From Photobacterium proteolyticum (lineage in GTDB: Bacteria; Pseudomonadota; Gammaproteobacteria; Enterobacterales; Vibrionaceae): DNA of 64,000 bases. A program made the translations under genes and the position numbers. Under the pieces are notes generated by a model. The model was not told the DNA's origin. It did not search any database and saw only the letters and a program-made list of their open reading frames with translations. Position 1 is the first letter of the stretch; every line of letters begins with the position of its first letter. The stretch spans positions 1 through 64,000 of the forward strand of contig NZ_MJIL01000044.1 in assembly GCF_001939735.1 (NCBI RefSeq), given 5' to 3'. Of this stretch, positions 34,652 to 47,240 are shown one piece after another.

Positions 34652-34713
34652 TTGCTCATACTAGTAATCTTGGCTATATTGCGCCCGCCTCGCCATTTGC
34701 GGGGCATTTTTTT
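34652..34713 (+). promoter_or_regulatory. Promoter followed at once by a terminator hairpin
   Basis: TTGCTC (34652-34657), a 17-bp spacer and TATATT (34675-34680) make a plausible sigma-70 promoter. Starting about at the predicted transcript start, GCCTCGC (34687-34693) pairs with GCGGGGC (34699-34705) and is followed by seven T. The hairpin lies 28 bp before the 5'-nucleotidase gene with no gene upstream on this strand, so it could attenuate that gene. Confidence 0.45.
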
Positions 34714-34741
34714 ATCTGAGTTTTACTTTTTAGGTAGTTAT

Positions 34742-36741
34742 ATGACCTTTTCTAAGCCTCTCGTCGCATTATCTGTCACGCTGGCCTTGGCTGGCTGTAC
34801 GCAAACAGCGAATCAATCAGAATCGAATCAACAGGACCATACCTTCACGCTAACCGTTGCCCATATCAACGACACGCATTCCAATTTCGATCCGGTTAAA
34901 TCCAGCTTCAAAGCCGACGAAAAACTGGTTTATAACGAGTTTGGTGGCTTCCCTCGCCTGCAAACGATGGCTGAAGAATACAAACAGGCTGCCAAACAAC
35001 AAGACAACAGTTTTCTATTCCTGCACGGCGGCGATGCATGGCAAGGTAGTGCCTATTTCAAGCTCAACGAAGGGGCTATGAATGCCGAGCTTCTAAGCAA
35101 AATGAGCCTGGAGCTATGGCACTGGGCAACCACGAGTTCGACCTGAACAATGCCAAGCTCAACCAGTTCATCAGTGATATCAACTTCCCGGTTGTTGCCG
35201 CTAATATCGATACCAGCCACGATGCCGATCTAAAAGATCAAACAAACCTTAAACCTTTTGTTGTCTTCACTTTCGACGGAAACAGCAAAACAGTGATCAA
35301 TGATCTGGATAACTTGCCTGAGAATAAAGACCTGGTTGCAGTATTCGGTATCGCCCTTGACGACATGCCTAACCTGGCACCGAATACCGGTAAGGTGATA
35401 TTCCATGACATGGTTGAATCCTCTCAGGCCACTGTCGATATGCTTGAAGAAAAGGGAATCAATAACATTGTTGCTCTCACCCACATTGGTAATGCCGTTG
35501 ATCTGGAGATCGCATCGAAAGTAAACGGTATCGATCTAATTGTCGGCGGTCACTCTCACACACTCCTTGGTGATTTCACCAATATCGGCCATGACCACAA
35601 TGGTGTCTATGCGCAGATGGTACAAAACCCCAATGGCCAGAGCCAAACCTGTGTGGTTCAGGCCGGCCAATATGCGCAGGCAATTGGCCGACTTGCTGTT
35701 AGTTTCGATACCAATGGCGAAGTAACAGCCTGTAACGGTCTCAATACCCTACTGAGCAATGACGAATACTTCCACTCCCCGACCCGAGAAACGGAAAGCC
35801 AGTTCAATAAGGCTGATACAGCCAAAGTGGTTGATTTCATCGATGACGAAGACAATATCACCATCACCGAGGAAGAACCGGCGATGCGTGGTCTGATAGA
35901 CAGCAAGTACAAGCCTGCCGTCGACCAGGCGTACGGAAACGTGATTGCTCAGGTTACTGAAGAAATTACCCACGAGCGCCGCCCGGGTGATCGTGGAACA
36001 GACAAACATGGCTCGGATGTTGCTGCAATTATTGCCGAAGGGCAGTACTACTGGGCGAATACCGCAGAAGTTCAGCAAGTCACCGGGATGAGAGTCGACT
36101 TTGCCCTCATCGGGGCTGGTGGTATCCGTACCAATATCGAAGCTGGTGAATACCGTGAAGGCAACGTCTCACTCGAAATGCTACCATTCTCAAACTTCAT
36201 GTCAGTGCTGCCGGTGAAGGGGGCTGATATCAAAGCTCTCATCGAAGGCGCTATTTCCGCTACCTTGCCTGAAGGTTCACATGCCGGCAAGTTCCCGTAC
36301 GGCGGCCATATTCGCTATCAATACTCAGAAACCATCGCTAACCAGGCTGGTAAGCTGGATTATGTTGAAGTAATGACGGGACCAGCTGAAAACCCAACCT
36401 GGACAGCACTTGATGACAACAAAACCTACAACGTTGCAATCAACAACTACAACGCAACAGGTAATGACGGCTGGACACCGCTATTCAAGGCACAGAAAAA
36501 CAGCTCAGGCCGCGTTGATCTTGCCTATGTCGACGGCAAGCTAACAAGCTTTACAGTGAAGAATATCGAGGACGTTGGCGGAAAATATAAAGTTCGCTAC
36601 AAGACCCAGGGACCGGACTGCAAGGCAGATAACGTCCGTTGTAATACCGACGCCCAGTCAGTTATCGACTTCATTGCCAATGAGCGACCGGCGCTTACAC
36701 CGCTCGACTATCAAGTCGTGACTTTCGAGCGAATCAAGTAA
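34742..36741 (+). pseudogene. 5'-nucleotidase lipoprotein, frameshifted
   Basis: Secreted 5'-nucleotidases release phosphate from nucleotides. The protein has a lipoprotein signal (LALAGC, Cys19). The metallophosphatase motifs AHINDTHSN, HGGDAWQGS, ALGNHEFDL, LTHIG and GGHSHT are followed by a nucleotidase C-terminal domain (NNYNATGNDGWTPL). The frame changes at about 35110-35113. The first part ends after SKMSLE and the second resumes with MALGNHEF; adding one base restores a 666-residue protein of normal size. Homologues read KMxLDAMALGNHEFD here. As read the gene is inactive, but a sequencing error is just as possible. A 626-codon remainder (35116-36741) could start internally, but would lack the signal and first metal ligands. 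A terminator follows the stop. Confidence 0.85.
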
Positions 36742-36826: not shown

Positions 36827-37114
36827 TCAAGTCTTGCAATAACCATGATCTCTTTTCCAGCTCTCACTCATTTTTTCGAGTACACAAGGCGGTAGCGGAC
36901 GGTGGGCCCTTGCTGGCTTAGTCGCGATAGTGCGGTATCCGGCAGCGATCAGGCGTAAATCAAACGCCCTGTCGATAGGCATCCCGGCACGACCTAAATC
37001 CCAGCGAAATACCCTTAACGACATATATTCATACGGCGCTAACTCTCCGCCATATGGATACTTTAAAACCTTGCCATAGGCATGTTTTGCCAGTTCGAAG
37101 TTAACTTCAATCAT
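36827..37114 (-). CDS. Conserved-looking protein of unknown function, 95 aa
   Basis: ATG 37114 follows GGAGG by five bases. The protein begins MIEVNFELAKHAYGKV and contains LKYPYGGELAPYEYMSLRVFRWDLGR and a basic C-terminal part with two Cys. No membrane segment or signal. I do not recognise the family. The layout of aromatic and Arg residues suggests a small soluble protein. Confidence 0.6.
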   Translation of the reverse strand: MIEVNFELAKHAYGKVLKYPYGGELAPYEYMSLRVFRWDLGRAGMPIDRAFDLRLIAAGYRTIATKPARAHRPLPPCVLEKMSESWKRDHGYCKT

Positions 37115-37352
37115 AAGCACCTCCAAACACACTGGTTATAATAACAGTAGTCCGTTACAGGGTAGCTTGCAAAAAAGATTAAGTAAAACCATACCTAAAT
37201 CAAACCTAGGTCAAAAAAATACTACTATTGCATCAGGTTAATGCTATTTCTCCCCTTACGTAATGGCAGCATATTGGCCGATTCCCTTTTTACCGTGAAT
37301 TATTAGCATCTTGTCCTATGCTTAGGCTATGACAAATTAATGCTATTCAGCA
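37115..37352. other. Intergenic, promoter region of the acylation operon
   Basis: AT-rich, no gene seen. No clear operator or hairpin; only TTAATGCTATT is repeated, at about 37235 and 37337. Confidence 0.35.
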
Positions 37353-40070
37353 GTGAAGGGACGCAATTTGTTCGTAGATACGTTAAGGCATTATGGCGAT
37401 CTTCCCGCTATCGTCACAGACACAGGCTTAACACTGAGTTATGGTGAACTGGCCGACAAGGTTGATGCCTTCACCGACAACTTAGGTTCACACCGACAAT
37501 TGCTCATCGTCGAAACGCTGAATGAGTTACACCCATTAATCGCCTATCTAGGCGCATTACGGGCACGACACCCGGTCATATTGGTTGCAGCTGGCTCGAC
37601 AGAAAAAGACACCAATATACTCGACACCTTCAATCCATTTGCCGTCTACCGACACACTCCTATTGGTAGCTGGACACTTGAGAAAAACCCTAAGTACAAG
37701 AAAGTGCAGCTTCACCCTGATCTATGCGTCCTGTTATCGACATCCGGTACCACCGGCAGTGCCAAACTGGTTCGACTTTCACAAGAAAACATAGAAGCGA
37801 ATGCCCGTTCGATAGCCCAATACCTAGAGCTGGACACCAGACAGACAGCCATTACCACACTGCCTTTTCATTACTCATTCGGTATGTCTGTTATTAACTC
37901 TCACCTTGCTGTTGGCGCTACTTTGTTGTTAACAGAACGTTCTGTTTCCGAACCGGGATTCTGGGCGCTCTTCCGTGAAGAACAAGCAACCAGCCTTTAT
38001 GGCGTCCCCTATACATTCGAGTTACTGGAGAGAATCCGGTTCAGAGACAAGCAATTTCCGTCACTGCAATATATCGCCCAGGCGGGAGGGCGGCTTTCAA
38101 CAGATATCATCACTCAATATCTCGGCTGGGGCGAGCAACAACGCAAACGCCTGATTGTGATGTACGGCCAGACTGAAGCCTCCCCACGTATGGCCTATGT
38201 GCCGCCTCATGAGCTTAAGCAAAACCGGGACTGTATCGGCATAGCCATACCGGGCGGGCACTTTTCACTCATCAACGAGCAAGGAGTGGAAATTCACGGC
38301 CCCGAGCAAAGTGGAGAGCTAGTTTACCGAGGCCCAAATGTCATGATGGGTTATGCCACCAGCCCTGGTGATTTAGCCAAAGGCAACGAGCTTGAGCTAT
38401 TGCGAACAGGTGATCTGGCTTGCCGAAATGTAGCAGGCCTTTACCGAATTGTTGGTCGAATGAATCGCTTCTGCAAGCTGTATGGTTTGCGTATCAGTCT
38501 TGACGAGGTTGAACTTTTCCTGCAAAAGTCGGGCTTCTCTACCGTTGTTGTCGGCAATGACTCAGCATTGCTGATCGCGACGCTACAGAAGCATTCCAGC
38601 TCGGCAATCATCAATGTGCTTACCAACCGCTATCAACTTGGCGCGAACGCCTTTATTGTCAAAGAGATGGACGAGTATCCGCTTCTCCCTTCAGGCAAAG
38701 TCGACAATCGCTCACTAACATCCCTTATCGAACCAGCCGCAGGCAGCAACAACCACTACGACAACCTCTATCAGGCCTATAGTGACATCCTCGGTAATAA
38801 TGATATTCGTGAAAGTGATAGCTTCCTAAGCCTGGGCGGTGACTCGCTGTGCTACGTTGCAGTATCTGTCGCAATTGAAGACTACCTGGGCCAGCTTCCC
38901 GACAACTGGGAAGCCATGACCGTCAGTGAGCTGGAAGATTTTCATGAGGTCGAGCAATCTCCACTCCAGACAACACCGATAGCAGAACAGCGCCAGCCCC
39001 GAGCCTGGCTGACGATCTGTTTCATCATCGGTATCCTGTTGTTCGGCGAGATCTTTCTGCATATCCGCACCTATATTAAAACCGGACGCAACGTCCTATC
39101 GTTATTAACAGATAACAGTGCCATTGTGGTCGACGACAAACTTCAGACGCGTACCTACCGCCCGAACCTCGTCATCAAAGATACAAACACACAGCAAGAC
39201 CGCATGGTCATTAACTCATATGGTTTACGTAGCCCCGAAATCCCCCCGGAGCGCCTGCCTGACGAAATCCGTTATGCCGTTGTCGGTGCCTCAACGGTTG
39301 CTGGCATCTATGCCAAATCCAATGAACAGACTTTCTCTCAACTACTGGCAAGCGCAATTAAAGATAAATACCAGCATCGCCCGGTGAATATTATCAATGC
39401 CGGGATAGAAGGCAGTTCACTAAGCGAAACCCACCTGATTACTGAAAACATTGTCTACAAGCTGTCGCCCTCGGCAATTATTATCTACCCGGGGTTTAAC
39501 GATATAACGATGCTGTGCCCCAAAAAAGGGGCAAACAACAGTAACCAATTGGCTCAGTCACCGAACGTATTACAGCCGCTGGGCTACCCGACACTACCTA
39601 ATTGGCTGATGAGCAAAGACATGATCCAGAAGAACACCATCTTTCTCAGAACGCCGAAGGCCACCAGCGTTAGCTCACTCGATCCGGAAACCATCAACCC
39701 CACTGATTATCGCAACAGAATAGAGTCCCTTGTTAAAAGCATCATCGCGCAAGGGATCAAGCCTGTTCTGGTTACGGTTGCCCGCTCCTATATCAACGTT
39801 GCCAAAGAGCAACAGGAAAGCCTGGCCGCGACCTCGATGTATTATTATCACTGCCTGGACCTGAATGGCATTATCCGCGTTGGGGAGATCTATAACGATC
39901 AAATCCGATCCGTTGCCCGGCAATACAATACGCCCTTTGTCGATCTCGCGGAGTTAATGCCCGGAGGCAGTCAGTATTTTGTCGATGGCGGGCATTTTAC
40001 CTACAAGGGTGAACAGTATGTAGCGAAGACACTGAATGACAAATTAGCAAGCCAGTTGATGGAGCGTTAA
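37353..40070 (+). CDS. Adenylation-carrier-membrane-SGNH fusion protein, 905 aa
   Basis: Residues 1-460 are an adenylate-forming domain: STSGTTGSAK (129-138), YGQTEASPR (271-279), RTGDLA (351-356), GRMNRFCKLYGLRISLDEVE (368-387) and catalytic Lys449 in PSGKVDN. Residues 465-535 are a carrier domain with phosphopantetheine Ser498 in LGGDSL. A membrane helix (about 551-573) then leads to an SGNH hydrolase/acyltransferase (about 640-905): GAST with Ser647, NAG (682-684), GFND (714-717) and D878-x-x-H881. In Dlt terms it joins DltA, DltC and a DltD-like part in one chain. The start is GTG 37353, or TTG 37368 after AAGGGA. It is followed two bases later by an MBOAT gene. Inferred role: activate an amino or fatty acid, pass it across the membrane with the MBOAT and attach it to a surface glycan. 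Substrate unknown. Confidence 0.75.
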   Translation: MKGRNLFVDTLRHYGDLPAIVTDTGLTLSYGELADKVDAFTDNLGSHRQLLIVETLNELHPLIAYLGALRARHPVILVAAGSTEKDTNILDTFNPFAVYRHTPIGSWTLEKNPKYKKVQLHPDLCVLLSTSGTTGSAKLVRLSQENIEANARSIAQYLELDTRQTAITTLPFHYSFGMSVINSHLAVGATLLLTERSVSEPGFWALFREEQATSLYGVPYTFELLERIRFRDKQFPSLQYIAQAGGRLSTDIITQYLGWGEQQRKRLIVMYGQTEASPRMAYVPPHELKQNRDCIGIAIPGGHFSLINEQGVEIHGPEQSGELVYRGPNVMMGYATSPGDLAKGNELELLRTGDLACRNVAGLYRIVGRMNRFCKLYGLRISLDEVELFLQKSGFSTVVVGNDSALLIATLQKHSSSAIINVLTNRYQLGANAFIVKEMDEYPLLPSGKVDNRSLTSLIEPAAGSNNHYDNLYQAYSDILGNNDIRESDSFLSLGGDSLCYVAVSVAIEDYLGQLPDNWEAMTVSELEDFHEVEQSPLQTTPIAEQRQPRAWLTICFIIGILLFGEIFLHIRTYIKTGRNVLSLLTDNSAIVVDDKLQTRTYRPNLVIKDTNTQQDRMVINSYGLRSPEIPPERLPDEIRYAVVGASTVAGIYAKSNEQTFSQLLASAIKDKYQHRPVNIINAGIEGSSLSETHLITENIVYKLSPSAIIIYPGFNDITMLCPKKGANNSNQLAQSPNVLQPLGYPTLPNWLMSKDMIQKNTIFLRTPKATSVSSLDPETINPTDYRNRIESLVKSIIAQGIKPVLVTVARSYINVAKEQQESLAATSMYYYHCLDLNGIIRVGEIYNDQIRSVARQYNTPFVDLAELMPGGSQYFVDGGHFTYKGEQYVAKTLNDKLASQLMER

Positions 40071-40071
40071 T

Positions 40072-41490
40072 ATGGCAATTACCTCCCTGTCCTATTTCAT
40101 TTTTGCGCTCTTTGCACTGATCGGCTGCGCGGCACTGCAGCGACAGAACGAGTACAAAAAGAGCTTTCTTCTCATCATCAGCTATTACTTCTACATGACG
40201 TTTGACTGGCGTTTTTCAGCTCTGCTATTGCTCCTTACCGGGATCAACTTCCTAGCTGGACATATCATTATGCACCACCAGCAAAAATTGATGAAGAAAG
40301 CCGCGCTGGCGGGTGCCATTAGCAGTAGCCTGCTGATTCTGTTCTACTTCAAGTACAGCAACTTTTTCATCGAATCCCTGTACGATTTTCTTCAGCTTTT
40401 CGGGCTATCCGGTCGAAGCCCGTTTGTCGACGTTATCTTGCCGATTGGCATCTCATTTATGACGTTCCAGGCTATTACCTATCCACTTGATCTCTATCAG
40501 CAGCGATTAGCAAAGCCCAGTTCCCTCAAAGATTTCGCCCTGTTTATGGCGTTCTTCCCGCAGCTGCTCTCAGGCCCTATCGTCCGGGCCTCCTACTTTA
40601 TGCCCCAACTTGAATCGAGCCAAAAGCTGTGTGGCCAGGATATGATGGAAGGGTTAACCCTGATTATCCGTGGGCTTATCAAGAAAATAATGATTGCCGA
40701 CATACTCGCACTGCACATCGTGGATCCGGCCTTTGGCAATCCATCAGGCTTTTCCTCACTATTTCTTGTCATAGCACTGTTTGCCTACAGTTTTCAGGTC
40801 TATATGGATCTCAGCGGTTATACCGATATTGCCATCGGGGTAGCTAAAATGATGGGCTTTAAACTACCCATCAACTTCAATCGCCCCTACATGGCAACCA
40901 GTGTGGCCAATTTCTGGCAACGCTGGCACATCACCATGTCCTCGTTCTTTCGAGATTACTTGTACGAAGCCGTCAAAAACTGGCGCTGGAGCAATATCTA
41001 TTTCAACTTACTGATTGTGTTTGTCGCCATCGGGATCTGGCACGGCGCAGGCTGGAACTTCGTCTTATATGGGCTGATCCACGGTAGCCTTGTCGGCATC
41101 GAACACTATCGCAGCCGCATGAGAGAACAACAAGGCCTGCCTCCCGTTGTATTTCGAGGTGTGTCGCTGGTTATTCGGATCCTTCAAATTTTCACCATCA
41201 TCACCCTGACCCGTCTGTTGTTCAGAGCCGATGATCTTGAAACCAGCTGGCACTATCTTCAGACAATCGTCAGTACCACAAACTCTGGCTTGCCGATAGC
41301 TCCTATTGCGGGCGTAGCCCTTCTGTTAGCGGCTTTACTTCACTTCACGCCAATTCGCTGGCGTGATCAGCTAATGAAATCTGCCGTCAGGATCCCAGAA
41401 TACGGCTACGCCGCTGTCACCGTAGTGTTCATTTACCTGATGGCGGCTCTTGGCTCCGATCAGGCTGCCTTTATTTATTTCCAGTTTTAA
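40072..41490 (+). CDS. MBOAT O-acyltransferase (AlgI/DltB-like), 472 aa
   Basis: MBOAT proteins move acyl groups across or within the membrane to a partner; AlgI (alginate O-acetylation) and DltB (teichoic acid D-alanylation) are the bacterial models. Characteristic segments are GISFMTFQAITYPLDLYQQR, FFPQLLSGPIVRASYF, FWQRWHITMSSFFRDYLYEA and GIWHGAGWNF with a His pair at 324 and 338. About ten helices are visible. It follows the fusion gene by two bases (TAA then TATGG), so the two are an operon. No other Dlt or Alg gene follows. Partner and acceptor are inferred. Confidence 0.85.
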   Translation: MAITSLSYFIFALFALIGCAALQRQNEYKKSFLLIISYYFYMTFDWRFSALLLLLTGINFLAGHIIMHHQQKLMKKAALAGAISSSLLILFYFKYSNFFIESLYDFLQLFGLSGRSPFVDVILPIGISFMTFQAITYPLDLYQQRLAKPSSLKDFALFMAFFPQLLSGPIVRASYFMPQLESSQKLCGQDMMEGLTLIIRGLIKKIMIADILALHIVDPAFGNPSGFSSLFLVIALFAYSFQVYMDLSGYTDIAIGVAKMMGFKLPINFNRPYMATSVANFWQRWHITMSSFFRDYLYEAVKNWRWSNIYFNLLIVFVAIGIWHGAGWNFVLYGLIHGSLVGIEHYRSRMREQQGLPPVVFRGVSLVIRILQIFTIITLTRLLFRADDLETSWHYLQTIVSTTNSGLPIAPIAGVALLLAALLHFTPIRWRDQLMKSAVRIPEYGYAAVTVVFIYLMAALGSDQAAFIYFQF

Positions 41491-41624
41491 ATAGCATTTG
41501 CCAGCCAAAGCCATAAACGTTTACTTTTTGTCCAGCCGGGCACGTGAGTAAATGTTATGGCTTTAAACTCCCCTTTCACTCATTTACTATTCCCTTTCTT
41601 CCAATCCCCAAGGACATACACCCA

Positions 41625-41990
41625 ATGCAACAAGTAAACATCGCTCCGAACCCACAAATCGCCGTTATCTTCAAAGGTTGGGCGGCAGACTGGGCAAAAG
41701 AAGGCCAGGAAAACAAGAAAGACATGGCGACGAAGTTTCACACTGTCTATAGCATTGCGGCTAAGGTGTTTACCGAGGGTGGTGAAGTAGAACTAACCTT
41801 CCTTTCAGCACTATTTCAAGACTGCAAGCAGAAGCTAGAAATGGCCGAAGCCATGAACGAGAAAGTAAAGGCGAGCCTGAAAGACGATGATGAGCGTGCC
41901 CAGGCGATCATTGCCAAGGTAAACAGCGCCGCTCAAGATGCAGCCCATGTTGTTCGCTATCTTGGCCAGCTGCTGATGCCTTCTGCGTAA
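41625..41990 (+). CDS. Hypothetical alpha-helical protein, 121 aa
   Basis: I choose ATG 41625 (MQQVNIAPNPQ), preceded by AAGGAC; the upstream extension is unlike a protein start. It is hydrophilic, with heptad-like helices (FLSALFQDCKQKLEMAEAMNEKV) and a mixed-charge C-terminus. No known domain. It lies downstream of the acylation operon with 134 bp between, so a link is possible but unproven. A terminator follows. Confidence 0.55.
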   Translation: MQQVNIAPNPQIAVIFKGWAADWAKEGQENKKDMATKFHTVYSIAAKVFTEGGEVELTFLSALFQDCKQKLEMAEAMNEKVKASLKDDDERAQAIIAKVNSAAQDAAHVVRYLGQLLMPSA

Positions 41991-45485: not shown

Positions 45486-47240
45486 CTACCACTCCCTCAC
45501 AAGTAACCGGCTCTTAACACCCTTTACCTGTAACCCCATTGCTTCAAATACATCCTCGAAATTTCGGCATTGTGATGGCAAATTAGGCAATGACAAAACA
45601 GCTTCATCAAAAAAGCGGGTTTGCTCCTGCTCGCTCTGCCAGGCAGTTTGCCACCACTCCAAAATACGCTCTTTGGACTCATTCAATCGCTTATTTTTTG
45701 GCAGCCTGTCTTTCTTGTTCAGATTCTCTGTTGTTGTCGTCGGCAGTAAGTTCCAACGATCATTGTTCGGCCAGTAGGCAAACGGCAAGCAATGATCAAC
45801 ATGGTATTGATTACGAAGCTTTTTTCCACTCCATACGCTATGGATTTCAGTACCGCACTGCCGTAGCGCATCGACTTTCTTTCGTACTTCTCGGGTATCG
45901 TGATCTTTATCTACCCAAATCAAGCAGTCATGATACTGTTGCAACCCGATGTTTCGCGCTTTGTTACTTTCAAACCGTTGCATTTCAAGTACCCATTGGT
46001 TCACTACCAATGGCTCAATCCAGCTATTATATAAGCGTAAACACTCCCACAAACTTTCATCCAAAATAAACGTGCCGAAACTTCCTAAAAAGTCACTGTC
46101 GATAAAGAAAGAAGAAAGTAAATTTCTTCGTTTAGAAGGTGGCATCATTTCAAACAGCCTATTATCATTGGCTCCTTGATAAATAAACTTCACAGGTCCT
46201 TGCTTAATTGTCGACAAAGCATCTTTCAAAGCCTTCTGTAGCGCTTTGGCATCTTCACCTGTAAATAATGAACCGATTGCCAAGTCATCGGCCGACAAAT
46301 GAGTCAGCTTTTGCCAGCCGTCCTCTTTGACAAAACCAAGCCCTTTACTGGTATTACTGTTTTGCTGGATCCCTTTTAAACCATCAATGTCTATATCAAT
46401 TAAGCGCTTAAACTGACGAATCCAGTAAAGGCCAACAAGGCCAAGCGGAATAGCTACCTTTCCATCAGTTCTGTCCATGACTGCACCGGGGTGGGCATCT
46501 GCAATTCGTAACAAGGTTCGAAGCAATGCTAATTTATAGGTTGCAGATTTGCTGTCGTTGACAATGATGTGGCGTACTTTGGTCAAATCACCTGAACCAT
46601 CATCTGGCAAGTTGAACACAATTGTCTGCCACTGGACATAGTCCCGCCCCATTGTGTCCTTACTAAGATCACTTTTATGACAAACATGAAGTGCATGATC
46701 CGTTGCTAATTGCTCAAGTTCTTCAACAGAAACACCATGAGTCGAACGACCATCATTAAAACTACCATGGCGTAGTGTAATAACTAGTTTTCCGTTAGCT
46801 GCCAGTAAATTTGCTAATTTCCGAAACGCTCGCTTTCGCTTAGATTTAGCGAGATGCATCCAAACTGCAGATACAAGAATTAAATCATAACGCATCCCCA
46901 AATCAGTCACTTTCGCTAAATCAGGGAGAACATCATCAATCCAAGTCACCTCCACACTGTCAGTATACTGGCGGCCAAAAGCTCTTAGCGATTTTGCAGG
47001 TTCCACTGCAAACACTTCACAACCACATTGAGCAAACCATTTTGCATCTCGCCCCGAACCAGCACCAATATCCAACACCCGAGCAGGTTGGAGATCATTA
47101 TTCAGCACTGGCCAATACGGTTTCCAGCTAGCATGAACATCCTCAAAAGATACTTGCCGGTAATTATCAGCCAGCTTTAAGGCGTTGTTATGATAATACT
47201 CAATATTTTTGTTCACTGAAGACACATTTACTTTATGCAA
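45486..47240 (-). CDS. Methyltransferase-HNH nuclease fusion, 584 aa
   Basis: Residues 30-190 are a class I SAM methyltransferase (ARVLDIGAGSGRDA with motif I at 55-65, then VSAVWMHLAKSKRK). A 250-residue middle part follows; an HNH-type region starts at about residue 479: YHVDHCLPFAYWPNNDRWNLL, with N498 (WNLLP) and N508 as HNH-like positions. This order of methyltransferase then HNH suggests a restriction-modification-like or DNA-damage-type protein, but the middle part is unlike known recognition domains. A fused enzyme could methylate and cut the same DNA, or modify a nucleotide or RNA. It is a single gene with no partner; function unproven. Confidence 0.65.
   Translation of the reverse strand: MHKVNVSSVNKNIEYYHNNALKLADNYRQVSFEDVHASWKPYWPVLNNDLQPARVLDIGAGSGRDAKWFAQCGCEVFAVEPAKSLRAFGRQYTDSVEVTWIDDVLPDLAKVTDLGMRYDLILVSAVWMHLAKSKRKRAFRKLANLLAANGKLVITLRHGSFNDGRSTHGVSVEELEQLATDHALHVCHKSDLSKDTMGRDYVQWQTIVFNLPDDGSGDLTKVRHIIVNDSKSATYKLALLRTLLRIADAHPGAVMDRTDGKVAIPLGLVGLYWIRQFKRLIDIDIDGLKGIQQNSNTSKGLGFVKEDGWQKLTHLSADDLAIGSLFTGEDAKALQKALKDALSTIKQGPVKFIYQGANDNRLFEMMPPSKRRNLLSSFFIDSDFLGSFGTFILDESLWECLRLYNSWIEPLVVNQWVLEMQRFESNKARNIGLQQYHDCLIWVDKDHDTREVRKKVDALRQCGTEIHSVWSGKKLRNQYHVDHCLPFAYWPNNDRWNLLPTTTTENLNKKDRLPKNKRLNESKERILEWWQTAWQSEQEQTRFFDEAVLSLPNLPSQCRNFEDVFEAMGLQVKGVKSRLLVREW

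Follow-up and report, generated by a model that had tools for sequence, protein, structure and literature searches.

Surface-polymer acylation by a membrane-bound O-acyltransferase (MBOAT) and an SGNH partner is, in the account given by PMC12148441, fed by a carrier in the Dlt system, which handles D-alanine and has a separate DltX, and fed by acyl-CoA without a carrier elsewhere. The same account describes an FxYxxF motif whose tyrosine shuttles the acyl group, shown for PatA and reported for DltX, and reports onward transfer from this acyl-tyrosine to the SGNH partner for both. Docking of DltC on DltB has also been reported (PMC9338922). For the AT3 acyltransferases, PMC9558356 assumes acyl-CoA, not a carrier, as the donor. 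Here we describe two adjacent genes in a 64,000-nucleotide stretch of the Photobacterium proteolyticum genome (contig NZ_MJIL01000044.1, positions 1 to 64,000; hereafter the window). The first encodes a fusion of an adenylation (A) domain, a carrier domain, a membrane helix and an SGNH domain, and the second an MBOAT. By analogy with the systems above, the pair probably forms a self-contained, carrier-fed MBOAT-SGNH cassette for envelope acylation.

Results

An earlier sequence-only reading of this DNA had described a 905-residue chain carrying A-domain motifs, Ser498, a membrane helix and an SGNH domain with Ser647, D878 and H881, followed two bases later by the start of an AlgI/DltB-type MBOAT gene. 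Both genes are present (Table 1), with a single base between the stop codon of the fusion open reading frame (ORF) and the ATG of the MBOAT ORF. In the domain search that this reading had proposed, a Pfam scan placed PF00501 (139 bits, cut-off 29.9, residues 116-334), the SGNH families PF13472 (37.7 bits, cut-off 32.9) and PF00657 (34.3, cut-off 23.6), and, in the MBOAT, PF03062 (84.9 bits, cut-off 27) above their cut-offs. The fusion had no Pfam match to PF01757, the AT3 membrane domain, at E up to 0.1.

A hydropathy scan of the fusion (19-residue window, threshold 1.6) gave one membrane segment only, residues 549-575, between the carrier and the SGNH domain. This segment resembles the N-terminal anchor of stand-alone SGNH proteins encoded beside MBOAT genes (L044, L046) or alone (L050); all share a helix ending E..[L/F]..R, from which the anchor of L098 differs (3/4 alike). 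The likeness to stand-alone SGNH partners of MBOATs suggests an N-in/C-out topology for the fusion, which looks like an A-carrier protein joined ahead of an ordinary anchored SGNH partner. The translation contains the SGNH catalytic residues S647, G684, N716, D878 and H881. The predicted SGNH model (pTM 0.80) had a best SGNH-fold match at Z 21.0, and its fold matches were mainly carbohydrate or acyl esterases. A PDB profile search with the SGNH alignment returned generic SGNH/GDSL matches, with PatB at E 0.43-0.87. The best 50 matches each from Foldseek and VIA-align comprised esterases and CgnD; the absence of DltD, PatB and AlgX/AlgJ among the matches listed is non-diagnostic.

The sequence-only reading had made the catalytic lysine of the A domain decisive for its proposal, and K449 is present, as it is in all 17 aligned A-carrier proteins. 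The same holds for the A-domain residues K138, Y271, E275 and D354, the carrier serine (the window's own protein counted) and W519, which follows that serine. In nonribosomal peptide synthetases (NRPSs) and DltA, the amino group of amino-acid substrates is bound by an Asp. A MAFFT alignment places Ser175 of the fusion at this column, which holds Asp in 5/5 A domains that the same genome encodes in long NRPS-like ORFs, Asp also in the ligase of exosortase A (XrtA) loci, and Ser (16/17) or Cys (1/17) in the A-carrier proteins. Shifting the alignment by two would bring Gly177 to the column; both residues are non-acidic. Since Ser175 replaces the Asp of amino-acid A domains, D-alanine appears an unlikely substrate, and an acid without an alpha-amino group would be the likelier one. 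A hydroxy acid can be put forward only as an appealing guess.

More distant A-domain relatives have LuxE, LuxC and a 3-oxoacyl-ACP-reductase-like gene in their loci (named by eye). This gene set is similar to that of the Aeromonas flagellar glycosylation islands, for which PMC7874193 lists genes for an acyl carrier protein, a 3-oxoacyl-ACP reductase, an AMP-dependent synthetase, LuxE and LuxC. For these genes, that paper proposes a role in fatty acid synthesis or in a liposugar. The window's genome also has two genes of the phosphopantetheinyl transferase family (PF01648), which could make the holo-carrier, a point in favour of the carrier-fed cassette.

The MBOAT carries a feature missing from the earlier description: a C-terminal FxYxxF tail. 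Residues F467, I468, Y469, F470 and F472 are invariant in 8/8 aligned MBOATs, and the hexapeptide reads FIYFQF or FIYFDF in all. The tail belongs to 88 residues past the part alignable with DltB, and the MBOAT's PDB matches were two sequences only, both DltB, at ~1e-28. No other protein of the genome matches PF03062, and this MBOAT is thus the only one that the carrier could feed.

The pair is rare and conserved as a unit. The fusion aligns end to end with proteins of five other species at 53-96% identity, the closest named genome being that of Photobacterium alginatilyticum (96%), and its catalytic residues are invariant in 6/6. That fusion and MBOAT should be conserved together was the other point on which the sequence-only reading had staked itself, and they adjoin, 0-1 base apart, in all five complete loci (window, L012, L013, L003/L049 and L040), from four Photobacterium and one gammaproteobacterium of another family. 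At a sixth locus, L011, the contig stops 192 codons into the MBOAT gene. Broad conservation across Vibrionaceae was not borne out: the carrier-SGNH half occurs in 4/52 Photobacterium genomes, the window's included, and in a sample of the order the only same-family matches came from the window's own genome. A fifth Photobacterium with the fusion, P. chitinilyticum, came from another collection; genomes G022 and G063 look conspecific with L012 and L011, respectively, and were counted once.

The full fusion was found in 2/369 gammaproteobacteria (the window's genome and G488, which is from a different family), 1/394 genomes of the order sample, 1/19 of the family and order of G488, and 1/398 of a phylum sample. 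These samples overlap and are draws from larger groups, and the larger searches scored the best 2 (369, 398) or best 4 (394) candidates per genome, so the rarity is approximate. Matches of any kind were found in 15/369 gammaproteobacteria at 1e-50, 13 of them in the A domain only, in 6/394 genomes of the order at 1e-6 and in 23/398 of the phylum at 1e-50. A contig scan gave five loci, three of which are fusions; the others (L014, L015) match the A domain only. Among 1750 matching plasmid records, none covered 80% of the fusion. The ratio of nonsynonymous to synonymous substitution rates (dN/dS) of the fusion is 0.14 against P. alginatilyticum, 0.10 against OFAV2-7 and 0.07 against P. chitinilyticum; for the MBOAT it is 0.18 against P. 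alginatilyticum and 0.08 against P. chitinilyticum, the ratios to the last species being rough, with dS >1. Purifying selection on the pair is strong.

Other A-carrier proteins (~850-930 aa) match the fusion over its N-terminal 535 residues and then continue into a multi-helix domain. They come from another class of the phylum (probably Alphaproteobacteria) and from one plasmid each of Roseateles (organism unverified) and Mycolicibacterium. Eight of them (L071-L074, L076, L077, L084, L085) are A-carrier-AT3-like fusions, in which an AT3-type membrane domain has a built-in activating and carrier unit. In the four of these that were scanned with Pfam, the domain matched Acyl_transf_3 (PF01757) at 15.6-32.9 bits, one of them above the cut-off of 31; the AT3 part of L072, L073, L074 and L076 was judged by eye. 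Two AT3 cousins with annotation are called 'AMP-binding protein' and adjoin iron-transporter or polyamine-transporter genes. Rhodococcus and Arthrobacter plasmids encode proteins ~42% identical over residues 7-527 of the fusion, the stretch that was compared. The pairing also occurs unfused: in G024 and G221, an AT3-type gene (84.3 bits in G024) is followed by a separate A-carrier gene (L048:5444-8172, L047:7606-10332).

We built a maximum-likelihood tree of 33 A domains, leaving out L075, in which no ORF matched; DltA sequences were not among its rows. The six SGNH fusions form one clade (100/99), which joins the eight AT3 fusions (90/82, not starred); together with the two AT3-adjacent proteins and L078 these make up the 17 A-carrier rows (95/89). 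Outside them lie A domains of SDR, LuxE-like and LuxC-like loci, some by pseudaminic-acid-type genes (by eye), and further out the XrtA ligases, together with A domains that the window's own genome encodes in long ORFs. The tree program warned of long branches in the outgroup and uneven composition in 11 rows. Since SGNH- and AT3-linked A-carrier units fall into one clade, the same activating module has apparently been linked to AT3 and to MBOAT, membrane acyltransferases that are unrelated to each other. In the wider clade, one A domain shares an 877-aa frame with a C-terminal part that is LuxE-like by eye (L081:5838-8471).

We also looked from the MBOAT side, at 15 loci out of 61 further matches in the class (the 13 best and 2 lower; several on short contigs). 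An A-carrier gene of the fusion's clade stood beside these next-best MBOATs in 0/15 loci, and an XrtA-type ligase in 1/15. Three XrtA loci (L044:4386-9726, L045, L088:5347-9535) have SGNH and MBOAT genes beside a ligase_PEP_1-type gene, whose identity is NCBIfam-confirmed in L044 only; this suggests that an XrtA ligase, too, may feed an MBOAT-SGNH pair.

Genomic setting

In the window, L012 and L013, the pair is flanked by a 101-aa ORF (36827-37132 in the window) and a 148-aa ORF (41544-41990); further out lie a 5'-nucleotidase-like gene, named by eye, and a gene of the ferric-reductase type (PF01794). The nucleotidase-like gene of the window (34652-36741) lies in two overlapping frames and is a single frame of 691-696 aa in L012 and L013: it is either a broken gene or a sequencing error. 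The flanking reductase is found in 13/52 Photobacterium genomes. Four of these without the cassette were fetched; two are syntenic and two have the reductase only. In G048, the two small ORFs adjoin, ~230 bases apart, with the cassette absent and other genes replacing the nucleotidase. In G051, the nucleotidase is kept and an unrelated 206-aa ORF (L117:3744-4364) occupies the cassette's slot, which, given this different gene, may be an insertion-prone site. The pair has different neighbours in G020 and G488. Because its surroundings differ in these genomes and the site is empty in G048, we conclude that fusion and MBOAT are a portable pair. A sharp break in composition at the gene pair was not seen. 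Promoter-like sites (5 against 7.3 in shuffles) and terminator-like sites (10 against 5.2) were not used. Elsewhere in the window, 45486-47240 encodes a 584-aa protein, methyltransferase-like in its N-terminal part and, by eye, HNH nuclease-like in a C-terminal stretch, possibly a defence gene.

Table 1 Features of the gene pair in the window
Feature	Position	Strand	Details
Fusion gene	37353..40070	+	905 aa, GTG start; A domain - carrier - membrane helix - SGNH
Adenylation domain, ~residues 1-462	37353..38738	+	Pfam PF00501; P-loop TSGTTGSAK, YGQTE, RTGD
Ser175 codon	37875..37877	+	MAFFT column where amino-acid A domains have Asp
Catalytic K449 codon	38697-38699	+	Lys in 17/17 aligned A-carrier proteins
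Carrier domain, ~residues 469-531	38757..38945	+	GGDSL; PF00550 19.8 bits
Carrier Ser498 codon	38844-38846	+	Ser in 17/17 aligned proteins
Single membrane helix, residues 549-575	38997..39077	+	Hydropathy scan, anchor comparison
SGNH domain, residues 642-888	39276..40016	+	PF13472; predicted model; fold match
SGNH codons S647; D878; H881	39291-39293; 39984-39986; 39993-39995	+	Read from translation; N716 in same domain
MBOAT acyltransferase gene	40072..41490	+	472 aa, ATG start; PF03062 match
MBOAT His324 (WHGAG)	41041..41043	+	Catalytic His; invariant in 8/8 aligned MBOATs
C-terminal FIYFQF hexapeptide	41470..41487	+	FxYxxF acyl-shuttle motif; Tyr469 codon 41476-41478

Discussion

The domains, catalytic residues, single membrane helix, tight gene pairing and conservation described above can be read directly from the sequence. 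For the reactions, the topology and the order of steps we follow related systems. On this basis, the cytoplasmic A domain of the fusion would activate a carboxylic acid with ATP, probably one without an alpha-amino group, and load it as a thioester onto the phosphopantetheine of its own carrier at Ser498. The carrier would then dock on the cytoplasmic funnel of the MBOAT, where His324 would help to hand the acyl group over to Tyr469 on the outer side. The FIYFQF tail would swing to the periplasmic SGNH domain of the same fusion and acylate Ser647, and the SGNH domain would finally transfer the acyl group to a hydroxyl of an envelope acceptor. The proposal of a two-gene, carrier-thioester acyl-transfer system in a Gram-negative bacterium, made by the sequence-only reading, is supported by the combination of MBOAT, SGNH domain and carrier, by a lysine kept in 17/17 proteins and by co-occurrence in 5/5 loci.

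Several observations weigh against this mechanism. The carrier falls slightly short in Pfam (PF00550, 19.8 bits against a cut-off of 20.8); among six scanned relatives three pass (34.4, 23.5, 21.3) and two are slightly short (20.5, 19.3), and the fusion of G488 (L040) has no Pfam match to this family at E 0.01, its SGNH part being below the cut-off too (28.6). The full-length AlphaFold model of the fusion, made from six sequences, is poor (mean pLDDT 49.5), and we used only its helix 552-575. By eye, no polysaccharide genes were recognised beside the cassette in its three settings, and the neighbourhood points to no acceptor. The tail of the MBOAT is that of the acyl-CoA-using type, so the carrier could be bypassed.

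This last point leads to one alternative, in which acyl-CoA is the donor for the MBOAT, as for PatA or AlgI, and the A-carrier half either yields a different product or does no more than increase the acyl concentration locally. The FxYxxF tail on the 88-residue stretch beyond the DltB alignment would fit it. Yet the SGNH partner is joined to the A-carrier half, whose catalytic residues are kept in 6/6 species, the genome has no other MBOAT, and in XrtA loci, too, MBOAT and SGNH genes occur together with an acyl-ligase gene; we judge the alternative improbable. We give just as little weight to a genuine Dlt-type system, for D-alanine or another aminoacyl group, in compact two-gene form. Its division of labour among A domain, carrier, MBOAT and SGNH protein would be equal, DltB is the sole kind of PDB match of the MBOAT, and the A domain is weakly DltA-like (69.6 bits), but the curated DltA and DltB cut-offs are missed, the DltD model has no match, and Ser175 takes the place of the Asp of DltA.

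The cassette might also be the same machine acting on a lipid or on an exported small molecule such as a siderophore, with no envelope polymer involved. Polysaccharide genes went unrecognised by eye in three settings and the two annotated AT3 cousins adjoin iron- or polyamine-transporter genes, both of which favour such an acceptor, whereas the characterised MBOAT-SGNH pairs covered by PMC12148441 act on polymers and, as weak evidence, the SGNH fold matches are mainly carbohydrate or acyl esterases; we regard a small-molecule acceptor as unlikely, though deserving some weight. That the fusion is a decayed or chimaeric gene, from an assembly join or a pseudogene, might be suspected from the broken nucleotidase-like frame nearby. 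Full-length homologues in five other species, including one of another family, and low dN/dS refute this, and we give it almost no credence.

Published descriptions of the fusion, or of its A-carrier-AT3 counterparts, were not found in the open-licence PMC literature; the architecture may be present, uncommented, in domain databases. By its sequence, the pair is an exception to the carrier-free rule for non-Dlt MBOAT-SGNH pathways, as that rule is put in PMC12148441. Somewhat more tentatively than the cassette itself, with the balance just short of even, we propose that it may be the first case outside Dlt in which an MBOAT-SGNH exporter receives a non-amino acyl group from a dedicated carrier thioester: one polypeptide would hold this group by covalent bonds twice, at the phosphopantetheine on the cytoplasmic side and at the SGNH serine on the periplasmic side, a second protein would ferry it across, and the activating module would have been plugged into two unrelated folds, AT3 and MBOAT. 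Such a pair would mix two modes, a carrier feed as in Dlt and a shuttle that is part of the MBOAT. It could allow the export of an acid that is not abundant as a CoA thioester, and with two genes it would be a convenient system for dissecting acyl passage across the membrane. The AT3 cousins with a built-in A-carrier unit raise the same donor question for the AT3 family.

Comparison with known systems

Pfam includes a DltD model; the SGNH region did not match it, matching only PF13472 and PF00657 at E up to 0.1. The A domain misses the cut-off of the DltA equivalog TIGR01734 (69.6 bits against 559.85), which none of 26 matches in the whole genome passes (best 291.2), and the MBOAT misses that of the DltB equivalog TIGR04091 (162.8 bits against 375). 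The carrier sits within the fusion and is not a stand-alone DltC-like protein (the genome's other carriers were not searched), and, as to a DltX, a single base separates the two genes and the MBOAT itself bears the motif (short ORFs elsewhere were not searched). With the Gram-positive Dlt system (DltA, DltC, DltB, DltX and DltD), the pair shares adenylation, a carrier thioester, an MBOAT, a tyrosine shuttle and an SGNH serine. It differs in that roles usually divided among four or five proteins are rearranged into two, in having the shuttle tyrosine on the MBOAT and in an A domain without the amino-acid Asp. The earlier label 'Dlt-like' is half right: it holds for carrier thioester, MBOAT and SGNH, and fails for the DltA and DltB cut-offs, DltD, Ser175 and the shuttle, which is on the MBOAT as in PatA.

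PatA/PatB, AlgI/AlgX and WssH-type systems share with the pair an MBOAT with a C-terminal FxYxxF and a membrane-anchored SGNH partner; in the terms of PMC12148441 they use acyl-CoA and no carrier, whereas the SGNH partner in the window has an A domain and a carrier. Of the PatAB-type features, the pair has the catalytic His with FxYxxF, the S-G-N-H blocks and one anchor, and is not carrier-free. The XrtA loci L044, L045 and L088 likewise have SGNH and MBOAT genes by an acyl ligase, and the MBOATs of L044 and L045 are 49% and 48% identical to that of the window. Unlike the window, they encode separate proteins, include a PLP decarboxylase (L044) and have a ligase of another clade, and the A domain of the fusion misses the cut-off of the XrtA ligase_PEP_1 model TIGR03098 (140.9 bits against 592.35).

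The A-carrier-AT3 fusions contain an A-carrier unit of the same clade, ~42% identical over residues 7-535, with an AT3-like membrane half where the pair has a membrane helix, an SGNH domain and a separate MBOAT. OatA/OafB-type AT3-SGNH fusions, as outlined in PMC9558356, likewise combine a membrane part and an SGNH domain outside the cytoplasm in one polypeptide, but have AT3 rather than MBOAT, an acyl-CoA donor and no A-carrier part. Judged by its sequence, then, the pair is Dlt-like in logic and PatA-like in shuttle, and by the tests made a member of neither system.

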